A stretch of 64,000 nt of DNA, from NCBI GenBank assembly GCA_022841915.1, contig JALHQN010000004.1:124001-188000 (forward strand), written 5' to 3'. The position numbers and the translations under genes are program-made. Positions 1 to 20,692 of the stretch are shown one piece after another. Each line of letters begins with the position of its first letter. The stretch's first letter is position 1. Source of the stretch: Burkholderiales bacterium (GTDB lineage Bacteria; Pseudomonadota; Gammaproteobacteria; Burkholderiales; WYBJ01). Below the pieces are notes generated by a model. That model was not told where the DNA came from, did not search any database, and saw only the letters and a program-made list of their open reading frames with translations.

Positions 1-1
1 T

Positions 2-3000: not shown

Positions 3001-6000
3001 GGACGGGGCTCTGGCCCGGCTGTCGGCCGGTGCCCAGGTCGATCTGGAGCGCGCCAATGTGAGTCGCGCGCGCGGCGTGCTGCGGGTGGAAGCCGGATCG
3101 AGCGTCGCTTCGGACGGTGCGATGCGTCTGGATGCCACGGTCGATACGCAAGTGGAGGGCGCGCTGGTTCTTGGCGGGCAGGCTGCGCTCGCACTGGGCG
3201 CTGGGCGCATCAGCTTGGGCGCAGTCGACGGGGTTCAAGAGGGGCTGGCACTGTCGGAGGCGAGCCTCGCAGCCTTCGGCGTGCCGGCGCAGCTGTCGCT
3301 GCGCAGCTATAGCAGCGTGGACTTCTTCGGAGACGTGGACTTGGGCGGGCCCCAACTGCGCAGCCTCGAGATCAGTGCGGGCGGTATCGCCGGTTACGGC
3401 AGCGCTCAGCCCGCGGTACGCATCGAGGCCGAGCGTGTCGTGCTCGGTGGCGGCGAAGGTCTCGCATACTCGCCCGCGCCGGCGCTGGCCAGCGGGGAGA
3501 TCCCGGCCAGTAGCAGTGGGCTGCTCGACGTGCGGGCCGGCACCGTCTTGTTCTCCGGAGGACGCTTCGATGTGCGCGGCTTCGGTGATGTGCGACTTGC
3601 CGCCGAGGGCGAGGTACGGGCCATCGGATCGGGAGAGGTCTTCGTCGACGCGCCTTTGACTGTCGCGGCAGCGCGCGTCACCACGGACGACCGGATCGCG
3701 TTCGATATTCGCTCGCAACATGCATTGGTCATGACCGCGATGCCGACCCAGCCTCCGCTGTCACCGGCGGCTGGTGTCGGCGGCATCTTGAGCTTGACCG
3801 GCAGATCGGTGCGGCTCGGCGCGAACATCGAAGCGCCTTCGGGCGAATTGAACGTGATGTCGACCGGATCCGACCCGACCGACGGCATTCATGTCGAAGC
3901 CGGCGCTCGCCTGTCGGTGGCAGGCAAGCGCGTGGTCTTCGAGGATACCGAGGTCGCGACCGGCGGCGGCCGCATCGAACTTCGCGCGGCCCGCGGTGAC
4001 GTCGCCCTGGACGCCGGCTCGTCCATCGATGTGTCGGCGCCGGCGGGCGGCGATGGCGGAAGCTTGGTCGTCGTGGCTACCCAGGGCACCTTCGAGTCGG
4101 CTGGTGACCTGATCGGAGGCTCGGTCGGCAGCCGCCAGTTCCCCGACCCCTGGCAAAGCAGCATCGACGTCGATGCTGCCCGCATCGCCGGATTCGGCCC
4201 GCTTCAGCAGGCGCTCGATCCTCGGTTCGGCAGCGACGGGACGACGCGATCGACGGGCTTCAACCGGGAACGGGTGTTCCGCGTACGCGAGCAGGATCTC
4301 GTGCTCGGCGCCGACGTCACGCTGCGCGCGGCGAACGTCCAACTTGTGGCCGACACGGGCAGCGTCGATATCCTGGGCCGCATCGACGCGGCCGGTGCGA
4401 GCGGCGGTCGCATCGAGATTTTCGCCGGCGGTGAGGGGCGCATCGATCTGCGCGATGGCGCGATGCTGGATGCTCGGGCAACGACGCAGGCGCTGCCGCT
4501 GCCGCTGGTGGGCACCCAAGGTCGCGGCGGACGCGTGCTTCTGGGCGTCGGTGCGCAGGGGAGGATGTCGCTGTCGGCCGGTGCACGGATCGACGTTTCG
4601 GCGGCGGACTCGGCCGAGGCCGGCGAAGTCGCGTTGCGCGCGCCGCGCATCGGCGGCGATGTCGCCATCGAGGCGCTCGCTGCGGCGATAGAAGGTGCGA
4701 GCCAGGTCGGTATCGAAGCTTACCGCGTCTATACCGCCGCCGGTGGCGCCAGTATCGCCTCCCTGGGAACGAGTGCCGGCGCCGGACGCCTGAGCTTCAA
4801 CCAGATCAACAACGACAGCAATGCCTATCTCTCGACGGCGAACATCAATGCCATGCGCATGCGCCTTGGATTGAGTGATGACGCGCCGTCGCCCTATGCC
4901 TTTCTGGCGGGCGTCGAAGTTCGCGCGGCCGGTAATCTGACGCTGCTCAACGACTGGAATCTGCGCACGGCTCGTCCCGGTGCGCAACCCGGCGTGCTCA
5001 CCCTTCGCGCAGGCGGCGATCTGTTGCTGAACGCCAACTTGTCCGATGGCTTTTCCACCGCGATCGCCACCGGCTTGCTGCAGCAAGGGGCATCGTGGTC
5101 CTATCGGCTCGTCGGCGGCGCCGATTTGCTCGGGGCCCATCCGTTGGCGGTGAGCCCGGGCAGCGGCAACGTGGAAGTCGCGCCCCGGCGTATCGTGCGC
5201 ACCGGCACGGGCGACATCAGTGTCGCTGCGGGACGAGACGTGCTGCTTCGTTACACCGCGAGCGATCTCGGCGACGGGCCCGTGCTCAATCAGGAACCCG
5301 GGGTGATCTATACGGCAGGTGCCGCGGGCCCGAATGTGTCGAATTTCCCCGGCATCACGATCGGCAACATCGCGGCGAGTTTCCCCTCGGATGGGGGCGA
5401 TCTGCGCATCGCGGCCGGACGAGACATCGCCGCACGCAGTGGTTCGGACATCGACATCGTTTCGGCGCCGATCACACAGTTCTTCAGCGACTGGCTGTAT
5501 CGGCAAGGCAGCCTCGCGGCCAACGGCACGATCGGCAGTTTCTCCGCGCCGCGCACGGCATGGTGGCCACGCTTCAGCGATTTCCGCCAGGGGTTCGGCG
5601 CGCTCGGCGGCGGCAATGTCGACGTGCGCGCGCAGGGCAGCATCGATGCGGTCGGCGTGTCCGTGCCCACGAACGCCCGCTTGCTCGCGCCCAACAATTC
5701 GCTGCCCGATGAAGGCAATCTGCTTTACCAGGGCGGGGGCGACATGACGGTCGTCGCTCGCAAGGACATCGCCAGTAGCAGCTTTCTGGTCGGTGCCGGG
5801 ACAGCACGCATCGAGGCGGGCGGCGACATCGGCGCGTCCAGGCTGACTGCCAAGGAACGCCGTCCCCTTTACTCGCATATCGCGCTGGGCGAGGGCGCGG
5901 TGTCGGTGGCCAGTCGCGGGGATCTGGGCATCGAGACCATCGCCAGCCCCACGACGATCGAGCAGGTGCCCGGCAACTTCGCCGGTTCCGGTGGCGCCAA

Positions 6001-7903
6001 TCGGCAATCGTACTTCTTCACCTACGGCGATGACAGCCGGGCCGTGCTTCGCAGCATGTCGGGCAACGTGACGCTGCTGAACGAGTCGATCGGGATCGGG
6101 GAGTTCGCCAGCCGCTTCGCATCGGTGACCGATGGGCTCTATGCCTATCCCTCGACCGTGCTCGTGCATGCACCGACCGGCAGTATCCGCATCGGCGGCG
6201 ATTTCCAACTCTATCCATCGCGTCGCGGTGGGTTGGAGCTGCTGGCCAGGGATGCGATCGCCGTCGAGGGTCGCATCGGAATGATCGATGCGCCGCCCGA
6301 GCGACTGCCCACGGTCGTCGCTCCCGATCGAACCACCCAGCGGCTGCGCTTGCAGGCCTCGGGCTTGTCGTCGAGCGGAATCGATGCGCACTCGAATCCG
6401 CCGCTGCACCTCGACAACTTGGAACCGGTGCGCATCATCGCCCTCCTCGGGGACATCAGCGGTCCGGTCACCTTCGACGGACAGGGCGTGCCCAGCGTCG
6501 GGACGATGGCGATACTCCCCAAGCCCGTGCTGGTGTCCGCTGGCGGCGATCTGCGCGATGTCTGGATATTCGGGCAGAACCTGCGCGCCGACGACGTTTC
6601 GCAATTTTTCGCTGGCGGTGATTTGCGCTACAGCACGGTGGGTGGTAGCGGCAGCCGCGCGCGGCTGGAATGGGGTGGCCCCGGCCGCCTCGAGGTCGCC
6701 GTCGGCGGCAGCATCGATCTGGGCGATTCGCAGGGCATCGTCACGCGCGGCAATCTCAACAATCCGGCGCTGGCGGAGCAGGGGGCGAGCATCGCCCTGC
6801 TCACGGGTGGGACGGCGGCCGACTATGTCGGCTTCATCGAGCGGGCGAGCGCACGCGCCGAAGGCGCGGGCCGCCTCGATGTTCTGGGTCCGCTCGCCGC
6901 CTACGTGCGCACCGTGACCGGAGATGGCGCGCTCGATGAGACGGCGGCGCTGGCCGCCTTCAAGACCATGCCCGCTCACCTGCAGGCACCCATCGTTCGC
7001 CAGCTGTTCTTCGATGCGCTCAAGGAGACCGGGCGTGCCGCACCGTTGGCGTTCGGCGGGATCGAGCGCTACGCGCTGGGCTACAACGCGATCGCGGATC
7101 TGTTCCCGCCGCGAACGGGCAGCAGCTACGCGGGCAACCTCGATCTGTTCTTCAGTCAGGTGAAGACCGAGCAGGGCGGCGACATCGAGATTCTCGTGCC
7201 GGGCGGGGTGGTGAATGCCGGCCTCGCGAGCATCGGCGGCAGCGCCAAGTCCGATGCGCAGCTCGGGATCGTCACCGTGCGCGGTGGCTCGATCCGGGCC
7301 ATGGTGCAGGACGATTTCCTGGTCAACCAATCGCGCGTGTTCACGCTGCAGGGCGGAGACATCCTGATCTGGTCGTCGGACGGAAACATCGACGCCGGTC
7401 GCGGTGCCAAGTCGGCCACGGCCACGCCGCCACCGCAGCTCGTGACGCGCGGCGACCAAGTCTTTCTGGACATCAGCAATTCCATCGCCGGCAGCGGCAT
7501 CGGCGTGCTGATCGCCAAGGAAGACGTGATTCCGGGAGATGTCGACCTGATCGCGCCGCGCGGGGAGATCAACGCCGGAGAGGCGCCGATCCGGGCGGCG
7601 GGCAACATCAACATCGCCGCCGAGCGCGTGGTCGGTGCCGACAACATTCAGGTTGCCGGGGCGTCGACAGGCGTGTCGCTGCAAGCGGCGCCGACATTGG
7701 CAACGAGCTTCTCGACAGCGAGCAACCCGGCGGCGGAAGCGACGCGCTCGGTGGAGCAGGCTACACGCGCCGCCGGTGCTGCCGCAGCCGCGCAAGCGCT
7801 TGCGGATCAGGGAGCCTTCAAGCCGACCTTTCTGATCGTCGAAGTGCTCGGCTTCGGCGAGGAAGCCGAGGGTCGCGCACGCGACCGGCCGGTGCCGAGA
7901 TGA
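2..7903 (+). CDS. Giant filamentous-haemagglutinin-type surface protein (5' partial)
   Basis: The frame is open to the left edge, so the start and any secretion signal lie outside the window. About 2,630 residues are visible; a GTG at 35 is only an internal codon. The sequence is built of short, degenerate beta-strand repeats rich in Gly, Ala, Ser and Val (recurring GxIxL, LxAGxxVDVSG and RAAGDI-type units), the pattern of the right-handed beta-helix in FhaB-like exoproteins. Around residues 1630-1680 (from 35) the segments NLTLLNDWNL and LRAGGDLLLN resemble the DUF3739 region of haemagglutinin-family proteins, and the C-terminus ends in a conserved-looking FLIVEVLGFG tail. No TpsB transporter is visible. 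The stop overlaps the next start by 4 bp (ATGA), which suggests translational coupling. A role as secreted adhesin or matrix protein is inferred from the family. Confidence 0.85.
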   Translation, partial: PRAQAASALGPVPTRGGSVTLSSLSDLRLEAGSLVDVSGGAYVSPSERIAFGNAGSIALSTGRFGLNDTELQRSVLGLEGELRGLAGAGGGTLTLASSSVRIGGEARPSLPEELHLVPAAFNVGGFAKIAIEGRDGVTIEPGTTIRLLAQNWVLDGSFAVNRSGTPMAALARREYIEDPRGTATELVLGTGSRLHGDLVVGEGAQLIVDTRGRIGLTSARQLTIDGTLNAPAGEIALSVLQPSTNDGFLAGQSIWLGSGSRLLARGVFAPEFRADGSLRGEVLSAGTVSVNAASGYVVMAAGSLIDVSGSAALIDLSAASGGSIALQRSVVGADAGVINLAAREGMLLQGTLSGHAGAAGVAGGHFAVALVRPTVPLAYPVQGDLSVVLSQFGETLPSGLAVGADIPFDRSGRVRIDAASIERGGFHRFSAEAEHRIEFEGAVSLRLPRSIELNAPLLAGLAGADAALITGYLGLSNLVPSRAAPLATARGDARLVVEAEHIELRGNLGVTGFDETLLHSRGDVQLRGVLATPGAARPGGLLRVGGDLTLQARQIYPATRTSFILDAQGADATLSVRGGAPDTPVYSADGRLVLRGHDIVIGGAVKAPFGEIAMEAANRLILQDRALVSVSGESLVVPYGATELSGRRFVYPLAADNRVILERPGEKRVTLDGREVLLGQGARIDISGGGELVAAEFLPGTGGSRDVLDPANAVGTYAVLPTLAGLYAPGDPHFGLNVQGIEAGDAVALSGVTGLPDGVYALLPARYALLPGAFLVTAEPGTLDMVAGQAYTKPDGSLVVAGYRVAGGIGGSASRAARSTGFNVRPGASARLQSEYLETTATQFFEAAAGARLPGDAGILAIGAGERLTLEAAVASAAAASARGASVDISAPKIVLAARQDVAVDPGFVVLDVGRLNALEAASLLIGGRRTSDGERVRIDVGTSDLIVANDAGSVLRAPELLLAASDTLLVQAGSALQARGSAALDTRAIVVGSVGGASGDGALARLSAGAQVDLERANVSRARGVLRVEAGSSVASDGAMRLDATVDTQVEGALVLGGQAALALGAGRISLGAVDGVQEGLALSEASLAAFGVPAQLSLRSYSSVDFFGDVDLGGPQLRSLEISAGGIAGYGSAQPAVRIEAERVVLGGGEGLAYSPAPALASGEIPASSSGLLDVRAGTVLFSGGRFDVRGFGDVRLAAEGEVRAIGSGEVFVDAPLTVAAARVTTDDRIAFDIRSQHALVMTAMPTQPPLSPAAGVGGILSLTGRSVRLGANIEAPSGELNVMSTGSDPTDGIHVEAGARLSVAGKRVVFEDTEVATGGGRIELRAARGDVALDAGSSIDVSAPAGGDGGSLVVVATQGTFESAGDLIGGSVGSRQFPDPWQSSIDVDAARIAGFGPLQQALDPRFGSDGTTRSTGFNRERVFRVREQDLVLGADVTLRAANVQLVADTGSVDILGRIDAAGASGGRIEIFAGGEGRIDLRDGAMLDARATTQALPLPLVGTQGRGGRVLLGVGAQGRMSLSAGARIDVSAADSAEAGEVALRAPRIGGDVAIEALAAAIEGASQVGIEAYRVYTAAGGASIASLGTSAGAGRLSFNQINNDSNAYLSTANINAMRMRLGLSDDAPSPYAFLAGVEVRAAGNLTLLNDWNLRTARPGAQPGVLTLRAGGDLLLNANLSDGFSTAIATGLLQQGASWSYRLVGGADLLGAHPLAVSPGSGNVEVAPRRIVRTGTGDISVAAGRDVLLRYTASDLGDGPVLNQEPGVIYTAGAAGPNVSNFPGITIGNIAASFPSDGGDLRIAAGRDIAARSGSDIDIVSAPITQFFSDWLYRQGSLAANGTIGSFSAPRTAWWPRFSDFRQGFGALGGGNVDVRAQGSIDAVGVSVPTNARLLAPNNSLPDEGNLLYQGGGDMTVVARKDIASSSFLVGAGTARIEAGGDIGASRLTAKERRPLYSHIALGEGAVSVASRGDLGIETIASPTTIEQVPGNFAGSGGANRQSYFFTYGDDSRAVLRSMSGNVTLLNESIGIGEFASRFASVTDGLYAYPSTVLVHAPTGSIRIGGDFQLYPSRRGGLELLARDAIAVEGRIGMIDAPPERLPTVVAPDRTTQRLRLQASGLSSSGIDAHSNPPLHLDNLEPVRIIALLGDISGPVTFDGQGVPSVGTMAILPKPVLVSAGGDLRDVWIFGQNLRADDVSQFFAGGDLRYSTVGGSGSRARLEWGGPGRLEVAVGGSIDLGDSQGIVTRGNLNNPALAEQGASIALLTGGTAADYVGFIERASARAEGAGRLDVLGPLAAYVRTVTGDGALDETAALAAFKTMPAHLQAPIVRQLFFDALKETGRAAPLAFGGIERYALGYNAIADLFPPRTGSSYAGNLDLFFSQVKTEQGGDIEILVPGGVVNAGLASIGGSAKSDAQLGIVTVRGGSIRAMVQDDFLVNQSRVFTLQGGDILIWSSDGNIDAGRGAKSATATPPPQLVTRGDQVFLDISNSIAGSGIGVLIAKEDVIPGDVDLIAPRGEINAGEAPIRAAGNINIAAERVVGADNIQVAGASTGVSLQAAPTLATSFSTASNPAAEATRSVEQATRAAGAAAAAQALADQGAFKPTFLIVEVLGFGEEAEGRARDRPVPR

Positions 7904-9711
7904 GCATGCGTAACGCATTTCACGCCGATGAAACACAGCGTCTTCAGAATCGTCATCATTTCAGCGGATCAATCATGACCAGTGTTCTTGCAGTCGTTCT
8001 TGCGCTCCTCGCGTTCGTGCCGAGCACGGCGCTCGCCTGGTGGAATGCAGATTGGACGAACCGGCGCTCGATCATGATCGACGCGAGCCCGGCCGGCGCG
8101 GATCTCAAGGAAGGCTTGAGTGGCTTCGTCGTGCCGGTTCGCCTGCACACGGGAAATTTTCCGTTTCTGGAGGCGAAGGAGGACGGCTCGGATCTGCGCG
8201 TCATCGCGGCCGACGACCAGACCCCGCTCAAGTTCCACATCGAGAAGTTCGACAGCATCAACGAGCTTGCGATTCTTTGGGTGCAGGTGCCCAGTATTCC
8301 CGGCGGCGCGAAGGCGCAGCCGCTCTGGTTGTACTGGGGCAATGAGAAGTCGCAGCCGCCTGAGCCGGCGGCCGGTACGTATGACGCGAGTCACCTCGCC
8401 GTCCTTCACTTCAGCGAGGCCGACGGCAAGCCGCGCGACACGACAGCGTACGGGCACCACGCCAGCGCAGTGACGGGAGCGAAGAGTGCGGCCAACGGGC
8501 CGCTCGGTGCGGCGATCGCGCTGGATGGCTCGGGCGCGGTGGTCCTGGGTCCGGCGCCCGGTCTGCGCTTCGGCAGCACGGGGTTCACCTTCTCGGGCTG
8601 GATCAAGCCCGCAGCCGCGCAGAAGGCGACGCTGTTCAGCGTGGGTGACGCGAAGAAGGGCATGAGCGTGAGCCTGGACGGCACGACCGTTGACGTCCGG
8701 CTCTCGAACGACGCGCCGGCGGTGGAGGCCCGCGGCGGCGAACTGGCGAATGGGCGCTGGACGCACCTCGCCGTGACCGTAGCCGAGCGCCTCGTGATCT
8801 ACGTCGATGGACGGGAGGTCGCGAACGTCGCCGCGCGCGCGCCGGAACTCACCGGCGAGATCTTGCTCGGCAACAGTTCGACCGGCGCGACGGGTTTCGC
8901 CGGCGAGTTCGATGCGGTCCAGATCGCCGGCGTCGCACGCTCGCCCGGATGGGTGCGGGCTGCCTGGGCGGCGCAGTCTCCCGACGGCAAGCTCGTGACG
9001 TGGGGCGAGCAGGAGGTCAGCAGCGGGGGTACGAGCTACTTCGGCATCCTGGTCAGTGCGCTCACCCTCGATGCCTGGATCGTCATCGGCATTCTCGGCG
9101 TGATGTTCGTGCTCAGTGTCTTCGTCATGATCGAGAAGGCACTGTTCGTGGCGCGCGCCGCTCGGGGAAATGCGGGCTTCCGGGAAGCCTTCGCGGGCTT
9201 GCAGGACGATCTATCGGCGCTGCGCGCCGCGCCTAGCCAGCCCGCCGCCGGTCCGCTCCATCGCCTCTACGAACTCGGTGTGGGAGAACTCGACAAGCGC
9301 CTGGCCGCCAGCAACGCACAGGGCAAGGCGCTGCGCCTGACGCCGCAAGCGATGGACTCGATCCGCGCCAGTCTCGACGCCGGCATGTCGCGCGAGTCGC
9401 GGCGGTTGAACGACCGCATGGTGCTGCTGACGATCGCCATCTCGGGCGGTCCGTTCCTCGGGCTGCTCGGCACGGTCGTCGGGGTCATGATCGTGTTCGC
9501 CGCGGTTGCCGCGGCCGGGGATGTCAACGTCAACGCGATCGCGCCCGGCATTGCAGCAGCACTGCTGGCCACCGTCGCCGGTCTCGGCGTCGCGATCCCG
9601 GCACTGTTCGGCTACAACTATCTTGCCAGTCGCATCAAAGAGGTGACGGCCGACATGCGCGTATTCGCCGACGAGCTCCTCACCAAGCTCGCCGAGCGCC
9701 ACGCCGACTGA
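7900..9711 (+). CDS. DUF2341/LamG-like domain protein fused to an ExbB/TolQ/MotA proton channel
   Basis: This is a chimera of 603 residues. After a hydrophobic signal peptide (about 26-47, cleavage near ALA-WW) come a DUF2341-type domain (about 48-145, beginning WWNADWTNRR) and a LamG/concanavalin-like domain (about 160-345, with FSGWIKPA and GRWTHLAVTV). A membrane segment lies at about 383-410. The MotA/TolQ/ExbB domain follows, with helices at about 512-537 and 546-572. The signal peptide places the lectin-like part in the periplasm, while the C-terminal part would be the inner-membrane proton channel working with ExbD. Ordinary ExbB proteins are about 240 residues and lack the extra domains. 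The start at 7900 overlaps the adhesin stop; an ATG at 7975 gives a cleaner signal peptide and is a real alternative. The ExbD and TonB-like genes follow at once. Confidence 0.85.
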   Translation: MSMRNAFHADETQRLQNRHHFSGSIMTSVLAVVLALLAFVPSTALAWWNADWTNRRSIMIDASPAGADLKEGLSGFVVPVRLHTGNFPFLEAKEDGSDLRVIAADDQTPLKFHIEKFDSINELAILWVQVPSIPGGAKAQPLWLYWGNEKSQPPEPAAGTYDASHLAVLHFSEADGKPRDTTAYGHHASAVTGAKSAANGPLGAAIALDGSGAVVLGPAPGLRFGSTGFTFSGWIKPAAAQKATLFSVGDAKKGMSVSLDGTTVDVRLSNDAPAVEARGGELANGRWTHLAVTVAERLVIYVDGREVANVAARAPELTGEILLGNSSTGATGFAGEFDAVQIAGVARSPGWVRAAWAAQSPDGKLVTWGEQEVSSGGTSYFGILVSALTLDAWIVIGILGVMFVLSVFVMIEKALFVARAARGNAGFREAFAGLQDDLSALRAAPSQPAAGPLHRLYELGVGELDKRLAASNAQGKALRLTPQAMDSIRASLDAGMSRESRRLNDRMVLLTIAISGGPFLGLLGTVVGVMIVFAAVAAAGDVNVNAIAPGIAAALLATVAGLGVAIPALFGYNYLASRIKEVTADMRVFADELLTKLAERHAD

Positions 9712-9727: not shown

Positions 9728-10132
9728 ATGCAAGTCCAGGACGACAACGAACCGTACGACGAAATCAACATCACCCCGATGCTCGACCTCGCGTATGTGC
9801 TGCTGGTGATCTTCATCGTGATGACGACCGCCTCGGTGCAGGGCATCAAGGTCAACCTGCCCAAGGCCAGCAATACGCCCAGCCTGGCGAAGCCGACGAC
9901 GAAGGCGATCACGATCACCGAAGACGGCAAGCTCTTTCTCGATACCTATCCGATCAGCATCGAGGAGCTCGAGCAGCGCCTGCGCCAGTTCAAGGCCGTC
10001 ACACCCGACTTCCCCGTGGTGGTGAAGGGCGACGCACGCATCCAGTACGAGCGGGTGATCGAGGTCTTGGATGTGCTCGGACGCGTGGAGGTCACGCAGC
10101 TGGGGCTCGTGACGCAGCGTCTGGTCAAGTGA
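9728..10132 (+). CDS. exbD: ExbD/TolR-type biopolymer transport protein
   Basis: This 134-residue protein has a short cytoplasmic N-terminus, one membrane helix (about 18-36) and a periplasmic domain, the standard ExbD/TolR plan. The NITPMLDLAYVLL stretch is the family signature, and Asp20 matches the conserved membrane aspartate that carries protons in ExbD. A GGAGAAG ribosome site precedes the ATG, 16 bp after the ExbB-fusion stop. It should form the proton-driven stator with the upstream fused ExbB and energise the TonB-like protein encoded next. Confidence 0.95.
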   Translation: MQVQDDNEPYDEINITPMLDLAYVLLVIFIVMTTASVQGIKVNLPKASNTPSLAKPTTKAITITEDGKLFLDTYPISIEELEQRLRQFKAVTPDFPVVVKGDARIQYERVIEVLDVLGRVEVTQLGLVTQRLVK

Positions 10133-10148: not shown

Positions 10149-10832
10149 GTGAGCCTGTCCAGTCGCAATCGGGGTCGCCTCAGTGTGGCGATGTGGCTGC
10201 TCGGCTTGGCCGGGGTCGCGGCCCTGATCTGGTTCGCGATTCAGAGCTTGATGACGCCCAGCGGGCCGACACGCAAGCACACCGTGCATCAGCTGACGGT
10301 CTTGAAGCCGCCGCCCCCGCCTCCGCCGCCGCCGAAACAGGAACCTTTGCCTGAAATGAAGAAGGAAGAGGTCAAGATCGACACGCCGGCTCCACCTCCC
10401 GACACGCCGCAGGCGGCTGAAGCGCCGCCTCCGGGGGCCGCACTCGGGCTCGACGCGGAGGGCACCGCGGGTGGAGATTCGTTCGGCCTGCAGGCCAACC
10501 GGGGCGGGCGAGATCTGTTGACGCTGGGTTCGGGTGCCGAAGGCGGCAGCGGTCGCTTCACCGGGTTCGCTTCACGCGTGCAACGGTTCCTGCAGAACGA
10601 ACTGGCCCGCAACGCCGCGCTGCGCCAGGGCGAGTACCGCGCGGAGATCAAGGTCTGGATCAGCGCCGAGGGTGCGATCGAGCGGATCGAGCTGGCCAAC
10701 CCCACCGGAAACCCGAAAACCGACGAGCAGCTGCGTCTTGCGCTGGGCGAACTGCCCCGGCTGAGCGAGCGCCCGCCGGAGAACATGCCGCAACCGATCC
10801 GCCTGCGCATCACCTCGCGCACGGCTGGCTGA
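10149..10832 (+). CDS. TonB-like energy transducer
   Basis: The protein has 227 residues: a short basic cytoplasmic end, one membrane helix (about 13-32), a tract of nine consecutive prolines (about 54-62) followed by charged Pro/Glu/Lys sequence, and a C-terminal domain (about 135-225) with the spacing of a TonB C-terminal fold (RVQRFLQNEL, then YRAEIKVWIS and IERIELANPTG). TonB proteins carry motor energy across the periplasm to outer-membrane barrels. The GTG start has GGAG 8 nt upstream and lies 16 bp after exbD. The Gly-rich linker (about 95-133) is less usual. The usual TonB partner, a TonB-dependent receptor, is missing; a porin-like gene follows instead. Confidence 0.85.
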   Translation: MSLSSRNRGRLSVAMWLLGLAGVAALIWFAIQSLMTPSGPTRKHTVHQLTVLKPPPPPPPPPKQEPLPEMKKEEVKIDTPAPPPDTPQAAEAPPPGAALGLDAEGTAGGDSFGLQANRGGRDLLTLGSGAEGGSGRFTGFASRVQRFLQNELARNAALRQGEYRAEIKVWISAEGAIERIELANPTGNPKTDEQLRLALGELPRLSERPPENMPQPIRLRITSRTAG

Positions 10833-10867: not shown

Positions 10868-12403
10868 ATGCGCAAAGTTGCCCTAGCCGTACTGCTCATG
10901 CCCTTGCTCGCCGGCTCGGGAAGCGCGATCGCCAACGAGCGCGAAAGCCTCGAAAGCTTGCGCGACACCACGCTGGCGCTCATCGAGGCCCTGGTCGAAC
11001 AGGGCGTGCTCAGCCGGGAGAAGGCACAAACGCTCGTGCAGCAGGCCAAGGAGAAGTCGGCCGCCGCGGCCCAAGTCAAGCCGCACACGGCGGCCAAGCC
11101 TGCCACCGTGCGGGTGCCTTACGTCCCCGAGACGGTCAAGCAGGAGATCCGCGAACAGCTCAAGCAGGAGATCATCGCGCAGGCGCGAGCCGAACGCTGG
11201 GCCGAGCCCAATGCCGTGCCCAGCTGGGTAGATCGCTTCTCGCTCGATGCCGATCTGCGCGTGCGCATGCAACTCGAGCAGTTTCAGTCGGACAATGCGC
11301 CGCCGGCCTTCTTCCAGGTGCAAGGACAAAGCAGCGTCAACAACACGCTGGAGGATCGTCAGCGCCTGAACGTTCGTGCGCGCCTCGGATTCTTGCTGCA
11401 AACCCCGGATGCGATCACCGGCGGCATCCGCCTGACCACAGGTTCGAGCACGAGCCCGGTGTCCACGAGCGCGACGCTGGGCAATACCTTCGGCAAGCAT
11501 TCCATCGCGCTGGACCGGGCCTGGCTGCGCTACCGGCCGCTGGAGTGGATGGCGCTGCAAGGCGGACGGATGCCCAACCCCTTCTTCAGCACCGATCTCC
11601 TCTGGCACAACGACCTGGGTTTCGACGGGTTGGCGGTCGCACTCGCGCCCTTCGGCCGTCAGGATCTCGATGTGAAGCCGTTCCTAACGGTGGGCGCCTT
11701 CCCGGTGCAGGAAGTCGAGCTGTCCTCTCGCGACAAGTGGCTGTACGGGATGCAGGCGGGTACCGAATACGCGTTCGGTCCGCGCAGTCGCTTGAAGATC
11801 GGGGCAGGCTACTATCGCTACGAGAACATGGCCGGGATACCCAACACGCCTGCGGCCCCGAATCTTCGCGACTATACCGCGGCGCAGTTTCGGCAAAAGG
11901 GCAATACCGTGTTCAACATCGATGCCGATGCCAATCCGAACACGAATCTGTACGCTCTCGCTCCCAACTACCGTCTTGCCAGCCTGACCGCCGTGCTCGA
12001 CGTGGCGCACTGGGATCCGGTGCATGTCATCTTGAGCGGCGCCGTGGTGAAGAACATCGGCTTCGACCGTGCGGAGATTCTTCAGCGCACGGGGCGGGAT
12101 GTCGAACCGCAGACACGCGGTCACCAGATGCGCCTGACGGTCGGCTATCCGAGCATACGCGATCGGCATGAGTGGCAGGTATTCGGCGGCTACCGCTATC
12201 TGCAGGCGGACGCGGTGCCCGATGCCTTCAACGATGCCGACTTCCATCTCGGCGGCACCAATCACAAGGGCTACGTCCTCGGCGGTTCGTACGGACTCGG
12301 CCGCAACGCTGCGCTGAACGTGCGCTGGATGAGCTCCAAGCAGATCTCGGGCTTGCCCTTGTCGGTGGACGTGCTGCAGGTCGACTTGGGCGTGAGGTTC
12401 TGA
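10868..12403 (+). CDS. Putative porin with N-terminal periplasmic helical region
   Basis: The 511-residue protein has a signal peptide (about 1-22). A helical region (about 25-75, with QGVLSREKAQTLVQQAKEK) and a second charged helix (about 88-110) precede a long stretch of alternating polar/hydrophobic strands ending in VDVLQVDLGVRF, a typical outer-membrane barrel terminus with final Phe. The layout matches the 'putative porin' class (Porin_5-like) rather than TonB-dependent receptors: I see no plug domain and no clear TonB box. Its place after fused ExbB, ExbD and TonB suggests that this barrel is the partner of the motor. Substrate is unknown. Its stop overlaps the next start (TGATG). Confidence 0.75.
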   Translation: MRKVALAVLLMPLLAGSGSAIANERESLESLRDTTLALIEALVEQGVLSREKAQTLVQQAKEKSAAAAQVKPHTAAKPATVRVPYVPETVKQEIREQLKQEIIAQARAERWAEPNAVPSWVDRFSLDADLRVRMQLEQFQSDNAPPAFFQVQGQSSVNNTLEDRQRLNVRARLGFLLQTPDAITGGIRLTTGSSTSPVSTSATLGNTFGKHSIALDRAWLRYRPLEWMALQGGRMPNPFFSTDLLWHNDLGFDGLAVALAPFGRQDLDVKPFLTVGAFPVQEVELSSRDKWLYGMQAGTEYAFGPRSRLKIGAGYYRYENMAGIPNTPAAPNLRDYTAAQFRQKGNTVFNIDADANPNTNLYALAPNYRLASLTAVLDVAHWDPVHVILSGAVVKNIGFDRAEILQRTGRDVEPQTRGHQMRLTVGYPSIRDRHEWQVFGGYRYLQADAVPDAFNDADFHLGGTNHKGYVLGGSYGLGRNAALNVRWMSSKQISGLPLSVDVLQVDLGVRF

Positions 12404-13092
12404 TGCGTTACGTCGGTCTATTTCTCGCTGCGTTGCTGCTCGCAGTCGTCGACATCGGGGCCTATGCCGCCGATGCGCAGGCCGACCGCATGCGCCAGGC
12501 GCTTCGGCGCGCGCAGGACGCTACTCGCGCCGCCGAGCAGGAGCGCGCGACGCTTGCCAAGGAGAAGGAAGACTTGCAGGCGACCCATGCGGAGCTCGCC
12601 GAGCGCAATGTCTCGATGGCGGCGGAACTCGAAGCGCTGCGCAGAGCGATGGGGGCGGAGCGCGCAAAGGCCGCGGCGGCGGCGCGAGATCTGGCCAATG
12701 CCCAGAAGGCCATGCAGGAGCGCGAGCAGGTCCTGCAGACGCGTTCGGCCGCGCTGGACGAAGCGCGCGGCGACGCTTCGAAGCTCGGATCGCAGCTCAA
12801 GGCCATGCAAGCGGATCTGGGCATTCGCCTTGCCGAGAAGACCAAACTGGGTGGCGAGCTCGAGCGTGTCAACAAACAGCTCGCTTCTTGCGAACGGGAC
12901 AACGCCGGCTTGTACCAGGTGGGCGTCGAACTCGCCGAGAAGCGGACCGGGCTCAGTTACTGGGACGGCGTCATGCGACGCGAGCCGGTGCTGGGCTTCA
13001 GCCGGGTCGAGCTCGAGAATCTGATGGAGCGCTACCGTGACCGCCTCGAACCGCATCGTCGTGTTCGCGACGATGCACGCCAGCAGCCCTGA
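12403..13092 (+). CDS. Secreted coiled-coil protein of the TonB/adhesin operon
   Basis: The 229-residue protein starts at an ATG overlapping the porin stop by one base. A signal peptide (about 1-22, ending AYAAD) is followed by a long Ala/Glu/Lys/Arg-rich heptad region (about 25-165) that should form an extended coiled coil. A short C-terminal segment follows, with one Cys (SCERDN) and LGFSRVELENLMERYRDRL. I do not recognise a named family. The tight coupling to the porin gene suggests a periplasmic partner, for example a spacer between barrel and inner membrane. That role is inference only. Confidence 0.75.
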   Translation: MRYVGLFLAALLLAVVDIGAYAADAQADRMRQALRRAQDATRAAEQERATLAKEKEDLQATHAELAERNVSMAAELEALRRAMGAERAKAAAAARDLANAQKAMQEREQVLQTRSAALDEARGDASKLGSQLKAMQADLGIRLAEKTKLGGELERVNKQLASCERDNAGLYQVGVELAEKRTGLSYWDGVMRREPVLGFSRVELENLMERYRDRLEPHRRVRDDARQQP

Positions 13093-13121: not shown

Positions 13122-15086
13122 ATGGGGCGCGAAGCAAGACACCGACAAGCCCAAGCGGCGCAAAGCTCGGCGCTCGGTCATGCGCTGCTGGCGGCCGGGG
13201 ATCTCGCTGGCGCACAGAAACAACTGCAGGCCGCGCGTTCGAGGGCCCCGCAAGCGGCCGATACGCTTGCCCTGGCAGGTATGTTGGCGCTCGCGCACGG
13301 ACAGAACGCCGATGCCCAATACTCTTTGCAGCGCGCATGCGAACTGGCGCCGGGGCATGTCGACTGGGAGATCGGGCGCGGTCGCGCGCTGTTTCGACTA
13401 GGGCAGTGGACGCTTGCCCGAAACGCGCTGGAGACGGCGCTTGCGCTCGATGCGGGTCGACCGGACGCCTGGGTACTGCTCGGACTGACTTTGCGCCGCT
13501 GCGATCAGCTGGAGAGCGCCGCCGAGGCGCTCGAGCGCGCCATTGCGCTTGTCCCTGGGGACGTTGCGGCGTTGATCAATCTCGGCAACGTCGCAAGGGA
13601 ACTGGGAGACCATCAGCGGGCGGGCGCGTGCTATCGAAGCGCATGCGCTGCGGACGCGCAGTCGGCCCCCGCACACTATCACCTCGGTATCTGGTTGCGG
13701 GACGACGGCGACGACCTGTCGGCCTCGCGCGCATTCGAGGCTGCTGTCCGAATCGAGCCCCGCTACGCGCCGGCGCTGTTCAATCTGGCCAACGTGCTGT
13801 GCTCGCTCGGGCGTATCGAGGCAGCGCTGGGGTACATCGATCAGGCGCTGCAACTGGAAGGCCAAGATCCGGCCCTGCTGCTGCGATGCGCCGCGGTGCT
13901 GGCCGAGCACGATCTCGCCGAGCGTTCGCTCGAATTGCTGGCGCGCGCCGATCGTCTTGCGCCGGACGATGCCGCGGTGCTCGGCAATCTGGGCATGGCT
14001 TATCAGCGCTTGGGGAGAATCGATGCCGCACTCGCCGCCTTCGATGCCGCCTTGTTGCGTGAGCCCGAGGGCAGCGCGCGCCTGAATCGATCCCTGGCAT
14101 TGCTGGCCGAGGGCCGCTGGGCCGAGGGCTGGGCCGACTATGGGGCACGGTGGCGCGATCCGACGCTCGTGGCGCGCCTGGAAGCCGCCCTGGGTTGCGA
14201 GTCTTGGACTGGCGCCGCGCTTGCCGGCAAGACGCTGCTCGTGGCGGGCGAACAAGGCCTCGGCGATGAGATCATGTTCGCTTCTATCCTGCCCGAGATG
14301 CTCGCCGAGGCGGCCCACGTGATCGTGGCTTGCTCGGTCAAGCTCGAGCGTGTCTTCGCGCGCAGTTTTCCCCAGGCAACCGTCGTCGGTATCGATCGGA
14401 TCGGGTCCGATTGGCCCGAGGTCCTGGCGCAGCGCGTTCGCAGCATCCGCGGTGTCGAGGCTTTCGGGACGTTCGGCGACCTTGCTCGATACCGTCGAGG
14501 CAGCGCGTCTGCCTTTCCGCGGCACGCGGGTTACCTTTGCGCGGAGCCGGACCGCGCTGCCTACTGGCGCGCGCGCTTGGCGGCGCTCGGCCCGGGCGCC
14601 CGGATCGGTTTGAGCTGGCGCGGGGGAACGGATGCCACAGGTCGAAACAGGCGCTCGATGACGCTGGAAACGCTGTTGCCGATATTGCGCCGAAGCGGGG
14701 TGCACTTCGTGAGCCTGCAGTATACCGAATGCATGGACGAGATCGAGGCGTTGCGCAGACGCCACGGGATCGTCGTTCATCATTGGCCGGCGGCGATCGA
14801 TGACTATCGCGAGACGGCGGCGTTGTCGTGCGGCCTGGACGGGATCGTCAGCGTATGTACTGCGATCGTGCATCTCGCGGGGGCGCTCGGCGTGCCCGTT
14901 CACGTCATGGCGCCCGCGGTACCCGAGTGGCGCTATGGGCGCGCGGGCCCAGAGATGATCTGGTATCCGAGTGTTCGTGTCGAGCGCCAGTCTGTTCCCG
15001 GCGATTGGACGGCCGTCGTCGCAGCCGTGGCCGACATGCTGCCTGGCGAGCCTGTTGCTTCTTCCGGCTCGCCGCCCGCGGCGTGA
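13122..15086 (+). CDS. TPR-repeat protein with C-terminal GT9-like glycosyltransferase domain
   Basis: This 654-residue protein has no signal peptide and should be cytoplasmic. Residues about 5-340 are tandem tetratricopeptide repeats (recurring ALxxAPGHVDW-, LGNLGMAYQRLG-type units). The C-terminal half (about 370-640) resembles the heptosyltransferase-like (GT9/GT-B) domain found in TPR-glycosyltransferase fusions: GEQGLGDEIMFASILPEM, then IGLSWRGG, SLQYTE and a late VSVCTAIVHLAGALGVPVH block. Fusions of this shape include protein and cell-surface glycosyltransferases, so modification of the upstream adhesin is possible but unproven. It begins 29 bp after the coiled-coil gene and probably closes the operon. 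Confidence 0.8.
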   Translation: MGREARHRQAQAAQSSALGHALLAAGDLAGAQKQLQAARSRAPQAADTLALAGMLALAHGQNADAQYSLQRACELAPGHVDWEIGRGRALFRLGQWTLARNALETALALDAGRPDAWVLLGLTLRRCDQLESAAEALERAIALVPGDVAALINLGNVARELGDHQRAGACYRSACAADAQSAPAHYHLGIWLRDDGDDLSASRAFEAAVRIEPRYAPALFNLANVLCSLGRIEAALGYIDQALQLEGQDPALLLRCAAVLAEHDLAERSLELLARADRLAPDDAAVLGNLGMAYQRLGRIDAALAAFDAALLREPEGSARLNRSLALLAEGRWAEGWADYGARWRDPTLVARLEAALGCESWTGAALAGKTLLVAGEQGLGDEIMFASILPEMLAEAAHVIVACSVKLERVFARSFPQATVVGIDRIGSDWPEVLAQRVRSIRGVEAFGTFGDLARYRRGSASAFPRHAGYLCAEPDRAAYWRARLAALGPGARIGLSWRGGTDATGRNRRSMTLETLLPILRRSGVHFVSLQYTECMDEIEALRRRHGIVVHHWPAAIDDYRETAALSCGLDGIVSVCTAIVHLAGALGVPVHVMAPAVPEWRYGRAGPEMIWYPSVRVERQSVPGDWTAVVAAVADMLPGEPVASSGSPPAA

Positions 15087-16967: not shown

Positions 16968-19085
16968 ATGCATCATCCGGAAAATGACATCAGCCTGAAT
17001 CAGTCAGGCAACGAATCCATCCGCGACGTGATCGATCGGGTCGATCCCGCGCGGCGACGTTTCATGCAGGGAACGCTGGGCACCGCCATGCTCACCGCCT
17101 TCGGCGGCAGTGCGCTGGTCGGAGCAGTCAAGGACGCGCTCGCTGCGCCCGCGCCCATGGGCGGCATCGGTTTCGCCTCCATTCCGCCCAGCCTCGCGCC
17201 GGTTGCGGATCTGGTGACAGTGCCACCAGGGTATTCGGTAAGCATCCTCAGCGCCTGGGGCGATCCCGTAGGCTCGACCGCCGGGTCGCCGCAGATGAAT
17301 CCGAGCCTGCCGCAGAATGAGGCCGACCAGCTCAAGCAAGACGGCATGCACCACGATGGCATGCACTTCTTCCCCTTCCCGGCCGCAGGCGCGAGCGGGA
17401 TCGGCAATACCCGCGGCCTGCTGTGCTGCAATCACGAGTACACCGACGAAGGCATCCTGCATAGTGACCTCACACCCGGTGCGACGCCGCAGACGATCCA
17501 GCGCGTTCGTGCCTCTCAGGCCTCGCATGGCGTTTCCGTCAAGGAACTGCGCAAGGTCGGCGGCAAGTGGACCGTGCAGAAGCCCTCCGCCTTTGGGCGC
17601 CGGATCACCGCGAATACGCCGATGCGGATGAGCGGCCCGGCCGCCGGTAGCGATCTGTTGAAGTCGAAGAAGTTCGACATCAGGCCGGCCGGCTCGGTCG
17701 ACACGGGCATGCTGAACGACGGCTTCACGGCGTTCGGCACAGTGAACAACTGTGCCCATGGCTACACGCCTTGGGGCACGTATCTGACCTGCGAAGAAAA
17801 CTGGAACGGCTACTTCGCCAATCCGACGGGAGATGTCACGGGCGTAGAGGGTGTCGATCGCAAGATCGAGATTCTCTCCGGCCAGAGCCGCTATGGCATC
17901 ACGACGACCGGCTTCGGCTATCGCTGGCACGTCGCCGACCCGCGCTGGAACGCCGACACCAACCCGAGAGAGCCGCATCTCTTCGGCTGGACGGTCGAGA
18001 TCGACCCGTGGAATCCGAACAGTGTGCCCGTCAAGCGCACGTCGTTGGGCCGCTTCAAGCACGAGGGTGCATGGCCGGCGGTCGGTGCCGACAACACGGT
18101 CGCGTTCTATCAAGGTGACGACGAGCGCAACGAGTACGTCTACAAGTTCGTCTGCGAGAAGAAGTACAACCCGCGCAACCGCGCGGCCAACCGCGATCTG
18201 CTCGACACGGGCACGCTCTACGTGGCGAAGTACAACAGCGACGGCACGGGCCAGTGGCTGCCGCTCGTATGGGGTCAGAACGGACTCACGGCAGCGAACG
18301 GCTTCGCCGACCAGGCCGAAGTGCTGGTCAAGACCAGGCAGGCGGCTGACCGCGTCGGCGCGACGATGATGGACCGTCCAGAGTGGATCGCCGTGCATCC
18401 GACCACGAACGAGGTCTACATCACGCTGACCAACAACACACGACGTGGCACGAATCCGCCGTCGTCGAACACGCCCGACGGCAACTTCAGCGGCGGCTCC
18501 AGGCGGCCTCCGGTGGATGCGGCGAACCCGCGCGCGAACAACAAGTACGGCCACATCCTGCGCTGGCGCGAAACCGGCGGCAATGTCGGCGCCACGACCT
18601 TCGAGTGGGACATCTTCGTCGAGTGCGGCGACAAGGCAGACGCCAACCCGAACTTCCAGGGCAATATCAACGGCGACGACTTCGGCGCGCCGGACGGCCT
18701 GTGGTTCGACAAGGACGGCCGGTTGTGGATTCAGACCGACCAACAGGGTGATGCGGCGGGCGACTGGGTCAACATCGGCAGCAACACCATGCTGTGTGCC
18801 GACCCGTCGACGAAGGAGATCCGCCGCTTCCTCACCAGCCCGCCGAACTGCGAGGTGACCGGCGTCGTCACCACGCCCGACGGCAAGACCATGTTCGTCA
18901 ACGTCCAGCATCCCGGCGAGGACTGGTCGGGCAGCTTCACCAACAAGAGTTCCTGGCCCGACAACGGTGCCAACGGTCCGACCACGCTGTCGGGCGGACC
19001 GGTGATCAAGCCGCGGTCCTGCACCTTCGTCGTCACCCGCGACGACGGCGGCGTGATCGGTGCCAACGGACTGACGATTCGCTAA
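16968..19085 (+). CDS. phoX: PhoX-family phosphatase (DUF839), Tat-exported
   Basis: The 705-residue protein has a twin-arginine signal (ARRRFMQGTLG, about residues 28-38) followed by a hydrophobic stretch, as in PhoX alkaline phosphatases, which fold with their metals before export. PhoX/DUF839 traits include the LTCEENWNGYF segment (about 272-282), DRPEWIAVHP, GAPDGLWFDKDGRLWIQTD and a C-terminal TGVVTTPDGKTMFVNVQHPGE block. PhoX enzymes use calcium and iron to release phosphate from organic esters in the periplasm or outside the cell. An AGGAG site precedes the ATG. Two PEP-CTERM genes follow, and a second predicted phosphatase lies at 24150. Confidence 0.92.
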   Translation: MHHPENDISLNQSGNESIRDVIDRVDPARRRFMQGTLGTAMLTAFGGSALVGAVKDALAAPAPMGGIGFASIPPSLAPVADLVTVPPGYSVSILSAWGDPVGSTAGSPQMNPSLPQNEADQLKQDGMHHDGMHFFPFPAAGASGIGNTRGLLCCNHEYTDEGILHSDLTPGATPQTIQRVRASQASHGVSVKELRKVGGKWTVQKPSAFGRRITANTPMRMSGPAAGSDLLKSKKFDIRPAGSVDTGMLNDGFTAFGTVNNCAHGYTPWGTYLTCEENWNGYFANPTGDVTGVEGVDRKIEILSGQSRYGITTTGFGYRWHVADPRWNADTNPREPHLFGWTVEIDPWNPNSVPVKRTSLGRFKHEGAWPAVGADNTVAFYQGDDERNEYVYKFVCEKKYNPRNRAANRDLLDTGTLYVAKYNSDGTGQWLPLVWGQNGLTAANGFADQAEVLVKTRQAADRVGATMMDRPEWIAVHPTTNEVYITLTNNTRRGTNPPSSNTPDGNFSGGSRRPPVDAANPRANNKYGHILRWRETGGNVGATTFEWDIFVECGDKADANPNFQGNINGDDFGAPDGLWFDKDGRLWIQTDQQGDAAGDWVNIGSNTMLCADPSTKEIRRFLTSPPNCEVTGVVTTPDGKTMFVNVQHPGEDWSGSFTNKSSWPDNGANGPTTLSGGPVIKPRSCTFVVTRDDGGVIGANGLTIR

Positions 19086-19159
19086 GCAGTCAGCACGACC
19101 GGGCGGCGACCGCCGTCCGGTCAAGTCCACCTGAAACAAGATCCCGAAAAGGAAAAATC

Positions 19160-19822
19160 ATGAAGCTCAAGCAAGTTCTCGCCGCCGCCGGCGCGTCGGT
19201 CCTGCTGGCCGCAGCCCCCGCGCACGCGGCTCTCACCAACACGATGGGCGACATCGGCTCGCCCAACACCATCACGTTCGACGACTTCGACGGCTTGACC
19301 GGCGTCGGCCCGACTCAGGTCGGCGCGTCGATCGGGCAGGATGTGGTCTTCACTGCTTCGCTGCCCTCGACCCTCGGCGCCTTCATCGCCGATTTGGGCA
19401 GCAACGGCATCTGGGGTGCCGGCAAGACCTTCGCCGCGACCGGCACTTCGGACGACCTCGTGCCCGGCTTCGGCCTGCTGCACTATACCTTCACCGACAA
19501 GGTGACGAAGGGCGCCGGGGCGATGCTCAACGCGGTCAACGCCGGGCCGATCCTGATGATCGCCTACGGTGCCGACACCACGATTTTGGAAGCGCATGTG
19601 GTGCAAGTTTCGACGCCCGAAGGCTTCAACGAGGGCAGCTTCTACGGCATCGTGAGAGATGCGAGCGACATACGTGCCATCGCCTTCGGCGGCACGGGCC
19701 TCGTGATGGACGACCTCGTCTTCACGACCCCGGTACCCGAGCCCGAGGCCTATGCGCTGATGCTGGCCGGCCTTGGCCTCATCGGCTGGGCAGCGCGGCG
19801 CCGTAACCGCGTCGGGGCATAA
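19160..19822 (+). CDS. PEP-CTERM sorting-domain protein
   Basis: The 220-residue protein has a signal peptide (about 1-23, ending AHA-A), a mature domain of beta-rich sequence beginning with a TITFDDFDG segment, and a C-terminal sorting signal: VPEPEAYALM, a hydrophobic helix, then the basic tail ARRRNR. Exosortase/EpsH systems cut such tails during transport to the cell surface or exopolysaccharide. The start is set by GGAAAAATC before the ATG. It follows phoX by 74 bp and may share its transcript. The function of the mature domain is not known. Confidence 0.85.
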   Translation: MKLKQVLAAAGASVLLAAAPAHAALTNTMGDIGSPNTITFDDFDGLTGVGPTQVGASIGQDVVFTASLPSTLGAFIADLGSNGIWGAGKTFAATGTSDDLVPGFGLLHYTFTDKVTKGAGAMLNAVNAGPILMIAYGADTTILEAHVVQVSTPEGFNEGSFYGIVRDASDIRAIAFGGTGLVMDDLVFTTPVPEPEAYALMLAGLGLIGWAARRRNRVGA

Positions 19823-19918
19823 CGCCCGAGCGGTGTGGTGAAGCCGCTCGAAGCCTGGTGCGCTCCGAGCGGTTTCGATTCGGTCAAGACATTCATCAGG
19901 CCCCAAGGAGAGTGCATC

Positions 19919-20692
19919 GTGAAGCCGCTTGCTGCAAAGATTTCGTTGCTGTTGGTCGGGCTCGCATCTTGGCCTGCGGCGGCAGCGGAACTCGTGGTGA
20001 CGCCGATTGCGGACACGACGATTTTTTTCAGTGGCGACGCGACCGGTGCCTCGTCGGAGGCTTCGAACGCGCGCGGAGAGAATCTTTCGGTGGGCCAGGA
20101 TGCGGGCGGCATCCTCAGACGCGCACTGATCCGCTTCGATCTGTCGTCGATCGCCCCGGGGGCGATCGTTCACTCGGCCGAACTGGTCTTGTTCAACTTC
20201 TCGCCGCGCCATAGAGGCGACTACGATGTGACGCTGCATCGGCTCTTGCGAGGTTGGGGCGAGGGTCCGTCGAACGGCGGCAGCACAGGCGCCAGTGGTG
20301 TCGCGGGCGCGGGCGATGCAACCTGGGTGCGGGCGGTGCATCCCGGTACCGCCTGGGATACGCCCGGCGGGGATTTCGTCTCCGAAGCCAGCGCGTCCAC
20401 GCTTGTCGGTATTCCCTCGCGCAGCTACGCATGGTCTTCACCGGGCATGGTCGCCGACGTTCAATCCTGGATCGATGCGCCGGGAACCAACCACGGCTGG
20501 TTGCTGCGGGGTGTCGAGACACAGAATCAGAATGCCAAGCTTTTCAGCAGCCGTGAATCCGGTGTCATGCCCACGCTGACGCTGCAAGTCACGCCTGTGC
20601 CCGAACCGGCGAGCTACGCCCTGCTGCTGACGGGGCTGGGGCTGGTTGGCTGGGCGGCGCGTTACCGCAACCGCAACCGCGTCGGGGTATAG
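19919..20692 (+). CDS. DNRLRE-type beta-sandwich protein with PEP-CTERM tail
   Basis: The 257-residue protein starts at a GTG with AAGGAG about 9 nt upstream. It has a signal peptide, then a DNRLRE-like domain (about 25-215): IADTTIF near the start, RRALIRFDLSSIAPGAIVHSAEL, and VADVQSWIDAPGTNHGWLLRG near the end, a layout used by surface carbohydrate-binding and cell-wall proteins. It ends in VPEPASYALLL, a hydrophobic helix and a basic tail (RYRNRNRVGV). The tail resembles that of the preceding protein (GWAAR and RNRVG in both). It is likely exported and processed by an exosortase encoded elsewhere. Confidence 0.8.
   Translation: MKPLAAKISLLLVGLASWPAAAAELVVTPIADTTIFFSGDATGASSEASNARGENLSVGQDAGGILRRALIRFDLSSIAPGAIVHSAELVLFNFSPRHRGDYDVTLHRLLRGWGEGPSNGGSTGASGVAGAGDATWVRAVHPGTAWDTPGGDFVSEASASTLVGIPSRSYAWSSPGMVADVQSWIDAPGTNHGWLLRGVETQNQNAKLFSSRESGVMPTLTLQVTPVPEPASYALLLTGLGLVGWAARYRNRNRVGV

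Follow-up and report, generated by a model that had tools for sequence, protein, structure and literature searches.

Why should a gene for a plugless, porin-like barrel lie directly behind tonB, in the place of a TonB-dependent receptor? The question is raised by the window, a stretch of 64,000 nucleotides (G000:C4:124001-188000) in which a run of + strand genes extends from the end of an exoprotein gene through a gene for a TPR protein. On balance, we favour the view that the porin is the outer-membrane part of a dedicated trans-envelope machine, driven by the proton motive force and serving a giant exoprotein; both the contacts within this machine and its function are what we infer.

The TpsB transporter gene (G000:C4:119960-121693), whose product has POTRA_2 and ShlB domains, lies upstream of the window and precedes the TpsA gene, which also starts outside the window, behind tpsB, and reads into it (window positions 1-7903) as an open frame of 3525 codons in G000. 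TpsA is an exoprotein of the filamentous-haemagglutinin type with a TPS secretion domain (109.3 bits) and, near its C-terminus, a DUF3739 domain (119.3 bits), so that the pair has the composition of a two-partner secretion system. Next on the + strand are genes for an ExbB-type motor subunit (7900-9711, although its true start could be at 7975), ExbD (9728-10132), a TonB/TolA-like force transducer (10149-10832), the porin (10868-12403), a coiled-coil protein that bears a signal and has a conserved block at its C-terminus (12403-13092) and the TPR protein (an open reading frame at 13122-15086). The porin frame begins with ATG 35 bp behind tonB and codes for 511 amino acids, and its stop codon overlaps the start of the coiled-coil gene by one base (TGATG at 12401-12405). 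Since the TPR protein has a match in 5 of 50 loci and is not always adjacent, we place it outside the core system; by eye, the C-terminal region encoded at 13122-15086 is glycosyltransferase-like.

A probable stalked porin and its conserved N-terminal box

The porin matches the Porin_5 profile (PF16930) with 545.3 bits against a cut-off of 22, over residues 33-511 and profile positions 2-535 of 535. At an E-value of 0.1, the sole other Pfam match is OMP_b-brl, under its own cut-off, and neither a plug (PF07715) or TonB-dependent-receptor domain nor an SLH domain was detected. An AlphaFold2 model built on an alignment of 50 homologues (A1; mean pLDDT 84.6) places 16 main strands, counted by hand, between residues 124 and 510 (11237-12397), compared with the 22-strand barrel of TonB-dependent receptors. 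Helices, and not a plug, precede this barrel: residues 23-44 and 50-68 form a helical hairpin (residues 23-68; 10934-11071) that is also marked by conservation, residues 70-78 fall below a pLDDT of 50, and residues 88-108 (11129-11191) form a further helix. The preliminary description, which had read the gene as a porin-like barrel lacking a plug and carrying an N-terminal helical extension, is borne out on both points.

In a re-aligned Foldseek list, the nearest solved fold is OmpM1 of Veillonella parvula (8bym/8bys; Z 26.6, 305 residues aligned, rmsd 2.9 A), followed by the porins OprO (Z 21.3), OprP (20.9) and OprB (20.8). OmpM1 is described in passages of PMC10628300 as a trimeric 16-strand porin whose periplasmic stalk consists of a triple coiled coil and an SLH domain. 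Because the nearest fold has such a stalk, the N-terminal extension of our porin is naturally read as one too, with residues 88-108 as stalk helix; the alignment with OmpM1 starts at model residue 105-106. By analogy, the Porin_5 barrel is probably trimeric as well. The likeness to OmpM porins thus covers the 16-strand barrel and the helical periplasmic extension, whereas our porin differs from them in having no SLH match, in coming with a motor, and in carrying a short conserved sequence in front of the stalk helix.

This sequence, VRVPYVP (residues 81-87; 11108-11128), ranks third of 505 seven-residue windows by conservation, at 3.72 bits. Its residues are kept in 43 (V81), 45 (R82), 45 (V83), 34 (P84), 48 (Y85), 43 (V86) and 49 (P87) of 50 homologues, and it is flanked by an unconserved linker (residues 65-80, 1.18 bits) and the helix (stretch 88-112, moderately conserved at 2.86 bits). 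A loose pattern of the box occurs within the first 230 residues of 46 of the 50 full-length porins, and the remaining four carry VRVQFVP, VRVPYVP, VRVPYIS and QRIPFVP in the alignment. All 12 shorter porins examined (L098-L109) lack the box, and as we read their sequences, at most the first hairpin has an equivalent in them. A conserved short N-terminal motif across homologues, proposed earlier as something to look for, is therefore present. As for the earlier remark that the barrel has no clear TonB box, none of the classical kind is seen by eye, and VRVPYVP, with its proline, is unlike one, but the motif is a conserved candidate for a transducer-binding box.

Mutual information between 47 paired porin and TonB sequences was not enriched at the motif (z exceeded 3 in 0.31% of cells for columns 79-90 against the TonB C-terminal domain and in 0.45% for the barrel, with the top pairs scattered); we regard this result as uninformative and count it neither way. 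The missing covariation signal in these 47 pairs, like a fold that is that of ordinary porins, is what one would see if an ordinary porin merely had a Ton system and an adhesin as operon neighbours and were inherited with them as a block, in the absence of any functional contact. We consider this improbable. The box and the stalk segment are missing from the short porins, and the genomic distribution described below argues in the same direction.

The motor and the force transducer

The ExbB-type subunit combines a MotA_ExbB domain (95.9 bits) with DUF2341 (46.2 bits) and a LamG/concanavalin-like extension (Laminin_G_3, 62.6 bits). Its hydrophobic stretches are a signal-like segment at residues 28-46 and a region from residue 393 on, and since DUF2341 and LamG both lie between the two, they are most likely periplasmic. 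A 2025 study of stators singles out DUF2341 in motor subunits of this kind as a domain of unknown function that merits exploration (PMC12505986). The aspartate at residue 20 of ExbD, which was identified by Pfam, is conserved in 46 of 46 aligned copies, and for this reason we expect the motor to be active.

The transducer was modelled from an alignment of 44 sequences (A2; mean pLDDT 78.8) and shows a transmembrane helix (residues 8-35), a proline-rich disordered linker and a C-terminal domain (residues 134-223). It passes the cut-off of TonB_2 (27.4 against 22 bits), was not found when the genome was searched with TonB_C (PF03544) and stays under the cut-off of TIGR01352 (21.6 against 27.1), so that its assignment rests on TonB_2 and the fold. 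With Z-scores that are modest throughout, its C-terminal fold aligns best with TolA domain III (up to 8.5) and then with TonB (up to 6.5); the first Foldseek match is HasB, which alone falls under an E-value of 0.001. The structure matches include 6s3w, a complex of TolA domain III with the N-terminal peptide of TolB, showing that this fold can take up the short N-terminal peptide of a partner. A histidine in the transmembrane helix (columns 11-34) occurs in 5 of 47 rows, and the window's copy has none; several of the 47 rows derive from frames that are too long or too short. TolA/TonB-type transducers have this histidine in an SHLS motif, described in parts of PMC12204202, which also report other new force transducers, of the vWA type. 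As the histidine is mostly missing, coupling of our transducer to its motor may differ. The linker also contains a conserved glycine-rich block (10440-10529, residues about 98-127; consensus LGlDAdGgAGgDGFGL.arKGGRdl), which precedes the C-terminal domain.

Compared with a Ton system and its receptors, the locus has the same kinds of parts, that is ExbB, ExbD, a TonB-like transducer and a barrel with a short N-terminal candidate box. It differs in the plugless barrel of about 16 strands that has no classical TonB box by eye, and in a transducer that is closer to TolA domain III and mostly lacks the transmembrane histidine. Elsewhere, the genome codes for four TonB_C proteins and has ten Plug-domain matches (none of these ten on contig C4), so ordinary Ton traffic has parts of its own.

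Distribution of the porin, the motor and the exoprotein

The PF16930 searches took in three partly overlapping sets of genomes, from the class (369), the order (300) and the phylum (398). The matches form two groups, full-length or nearly so (about 300-729 bits) and partial matches to shorter porins (up to about 120 bits). Loci were surveyed for 50 of 68 full-length places above about 290 bits (counted by hand), namely the window, L007 and L050-L097; L007 is the one relative confirmed in a pattern scan of genome contigs for the porin, in which 42 stretches matched. The barrel had been noted to lie directly after TonB, and this arrangement, with its 35 bp gap in the window, extends well beyond it: in 47 of the 50 loci, the porin gene follows tonB directly and on the same strand. 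The preliminary description had named homologues commonly lying away from TonB genes as what would speak against coupling, and this is not what the full-length homologues show. ExbD is present in 46 loci and ExbB in 45. A match to the coiled-coil protein follows within 1 kb in 45 of the 50, many of these matches being weak (about 25-60 bits), and the exoprotein frame lies inside the retrieved stretch in 37; several of the misses in these counts are contig ends. Around the 12 shorter porins, none of the operon's TonB, ExbB or ExbD was found at an E-value of 0.01 within about 9 kb; two generic TonB-like frames are present at L099.

Three full-length loci are motorless (L060, L086 and L091). At each of them the exoprotein is still beside the porin, and the genome has one DUF2341 match elsewhere, inside an exbB-exbD-tonB set; in one of these genomes, G530 (L114), the coiled-coil gene is placed with that motor set. 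These splits argue against an ordinary porin carried along in a block, as all the modules are kept when separated. They also leave room for VRVPYVP to bind something other than the transducer, since it is the exoprotein, rather than the motor, that neighbours the porin in these three genomes. Other variants were seen in passing. L074 and L075 have a tandem exbD pair between exbB and tonB, the full-length Porin_5 of L066 (G314:C51) is followed, 6.8 kb downstream, by a shorter relative, and G800 has a full-length porin together with separate motor genes on each of two contigs, C4 and C5 (L092 and L093).

Among the 300 genomes of the order, full-length Porin_5 occurs in 34, DUF2341 in 35 and DUF3739 in 33 (one match each), and all three are present together in 32 genomes from 17 families. 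Porin and DUF2341 occur both in 32, singly in 2 and 3 and neither in 263 (Fisher p 2.8e-37); the figures are 32, 2 and 1, and 265 for porin and DUF3739 (p 1.4e-39), and 32, 3 and 1, and 264 for DUF2341 and DUF3739 (p 1.7e-38), p-values that ignore relatedness and for which the 17 families are the more sober figure. The exceptions are few. In the two porin-only genomes, the exbB frame is cut by the contig start (G630) or the porin by the contig end (G448); the DUF2341 singles are frames of 1354 and 1381 codons in G405 and G502 and a match on a 3.5 kb contig in G418; and the sole match in the DUF3739-only genome, G500, is near a contig start. In the class and phylum searches, DUF3739 was found in 29 of 30 other Porin_5 genomes, the miss being G104, which is 85% complete and in 340 contigs. 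Conversely, all 15 genomes with DUF3739 over the cut-off in a draw of 239 genomes of the class are full-length Porin_5 genomes, a comparison with the Porin_5 class search in which the listings indicate the same leading genomes in both; in a sixteenth genome, G223, DUF3739 scores below the cut-off, and that search gave no Porin_5 match. Three DUF3739 matches with one full-length porin were seen in each of G843 and G1000.

Adjacency alone does not explain this co-occurrence, as DUF3739 is at least 15 kb from the porin in G522, G649, G600, G136, G314 and G249, and on another contig in G310 and G777. Its retention at such distances, and the near all-or-none pattern across 17 families, are difficult to reconcile with an ordinary porin lacking functional contact. 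The description of a porin in the place of a receptor captures part of these data: the porin is tied to ExbB/ExbD/TonB far beyond chance, but it is tied as tightly to the DUF3739 exoprotein, which that description leaves out. Since the porin comes with its own motor and a giant exoprotein in nearly every genome examined that has it, the data point to an undescribed envelope machine.

The same distribution bears on whether the motor and the porin might form a tie between the outer membrane and the inner-membrane motor, like Tol-Pal or OmpM, with the exoprotein gene as a neighbour of other purpose. The closest fold, OmpM1, is a tethering porin, and the transducer is closer in alignment to TolA domain III than to TonB; both observations would suit such a tether. 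The patchy presence of the porin (34 of 300 genomes in the order) and its near-strict co-occurrence with the exoprotein are unlike a general tether, however, and no SLH or peptidoglycan-binding domain was found with Pfam in the seven proteins scanned. We therefore judge a mere tether to be unlikely, and return to a machine that acts for the exoprotein.

A possible role in anchoring and moving the exoprotein

The exoproteins are very long (27 of 33 open frames have 3293-4571 codons) and end with an unconserved Ala/Ser-rich linker followed by a box of the kind F-[LI]-T-V-E-V-[LI]-G-F-G, which in the window reads FLIVEVLGFG (7829-7858, + strand). The box was tested in 35 of 37 tails; L092 and L093 were dropped because the frame ran off the retrieved stretch. 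In a two-fold held-out test on these 35 complete C-termini, 33 had a score that exceeded the 99th percentile for shuffled tails, at 1 to 55 residues from the end; the misses are L083 and L086. One half gave 18 of 18 and the other 15 of 17, and the halves are not fully independent, since L053/L054 and L055/L056 are related rows. In surface-retained two-partner proteins, anchors sit at this position. The reference list of PMC4873976 includes work on the surface anchoring of a two-partner adhesin. Relative to FHA-type adhesins, with which it shares TpsB and a TpsA with a TPS domain, the system differs in the C-terminal DUF3739, the conserved tail box and the near-obligate motor and porin.

We propose that TpsB, as is known for its family, would export the giant DUF3739 exoprotein to the surface, and that the ExbB/ExbD motor, with the DUF2341 and lectin-like extension on ExbB, would drive the TolA/TonB-type transducer. 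The C-terminal domain of the transducer would grip the porin stalk, most likely at VRVPYVP, so that the barrel, probably a trimer, could be held in place and operated from the inner-membrane side for the benefit of the exoprotein. The machine may anchor the exoprotein by its tail box and, powered by the proton motive force, hold it, move it or let it go. Among possible outputs, anchoring and force on the exoprotein through the tail box is our leading candidate, at a little under an even chance. We favour it on two grounds: the box is where anchors are found, and the exoprotein accompanies the porin as regularly as the motor does and is still its neighbour at the three motorless loci.

The second-ranked output is energised uptake, for which the lectin-like domain on ExbB makes the main rival case. 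Here the exoprotein would capture a ligand, perhaps a glycan, the porin would serve as its channel, the Ton motor would gate or drive passage and the lectin-like domain of ExbB, set between the signal-like segment and the hydrophobic stretch at residue 393 together with DUF2341, would receive it. There is a precedent in the Hxu haem system of Haemophilus, in which, according to passages of PMC4873976, the TpsA protein HxuA, partnered by the TpsB protein HxuB, feeds the TonB-dependent receptor HxuC. Both systems join a two-partner exoprotein to a Ton-dependent outer-membrane protein, but HxuC is a receptor, whereas the present locus would be a plugless analogue with a dedicated motor. The barrel is a porin of the OmpM/OprO/OprB type, and OmpM is reported, in part of PMC10628300, to act both as tether and as uptake channel. 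On the other side, there is no plug to pull, no permease, binding protein or hydrolase is found among the seven traced gene families of the window, and the exoprotein, at the lengths given above, is large for ligand capture. We hold uptake to be possible but rather doubtful.

Help in secretion ranks after uptake. The motor and barrel might assist TpsB in finishing, folding or releasing so long an exoprotein, whose gene immediately precedes the motor genes of the window and whose tail box is conserved. To our knowledge, most TpsA/TpsB pairs come without these motor and porin genes, which counts against such a role. TpsB-type transporters are moreover described as independent of external energy sources (PMC9355242). 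The Oar/PopC case offers a precedent in which a TonB-dependent transporter is needed for protein secretion (PMC6434023). The chance that the machine serves secretion or assembly is, in our estimate, slim, and anchoring and force remain the output we prefer.

The individual parts come from known families, and their overall plan is similar to that of Ton, Tol-Pal and Agl-Glt machines. The Agl-Glt gliding machinery of Myxococcus likewise has an ExbB/ExbD-type motor and a TonB-like transducer, and is linked to a surface adhesin. It is made of different proteins and has more components, and we know of no two-partner exoprotein, Porin_5 or DUF2341 in it. Its motor, transducer and outer-membrane proteins are encoded in separate clusters, as stated in part of PMC3169522. 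Tentatively, DUF2341, DUF3739 and Porin_5 could make up a compact machine equivalent in function to the Agl-Glt and Gld gliding motors. Within the literature searched, a scope that leaves preprints and most subscription journals outside, we met no account of a system made of these three parts. DUF2341 occurs together with ExbB in two papers, among them PMC12505986; DUF3739, PF12545, PF16930 and PF10102 are not mentioned in the open literature searched, where matches to the string 'porin5' looked unrelated, and the portions consulted of PMC8597729 and PMC9389320 hold nothing bearing on it. The analysis brings DUF2341, DUF3739 and Porin_5, three families of open function, together in a single testable system. 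It suggests that motors of the Ton/Tol type can work on porins without a plug, and it provides a giant exoprotein of two-partner secretion with a possible source of energy and a possible anchor.

Around the gene run, a set of genes resembling type II secretion or pilus genes, together with PEP-CTERM-tailed proteins, was noted by eye upstream of TpsB (L006 1-12000, G000:C4:104001-116000), and further PEP-CTERM-tailed proteins were seen, also by eye, at about 18800-20692 of the window.
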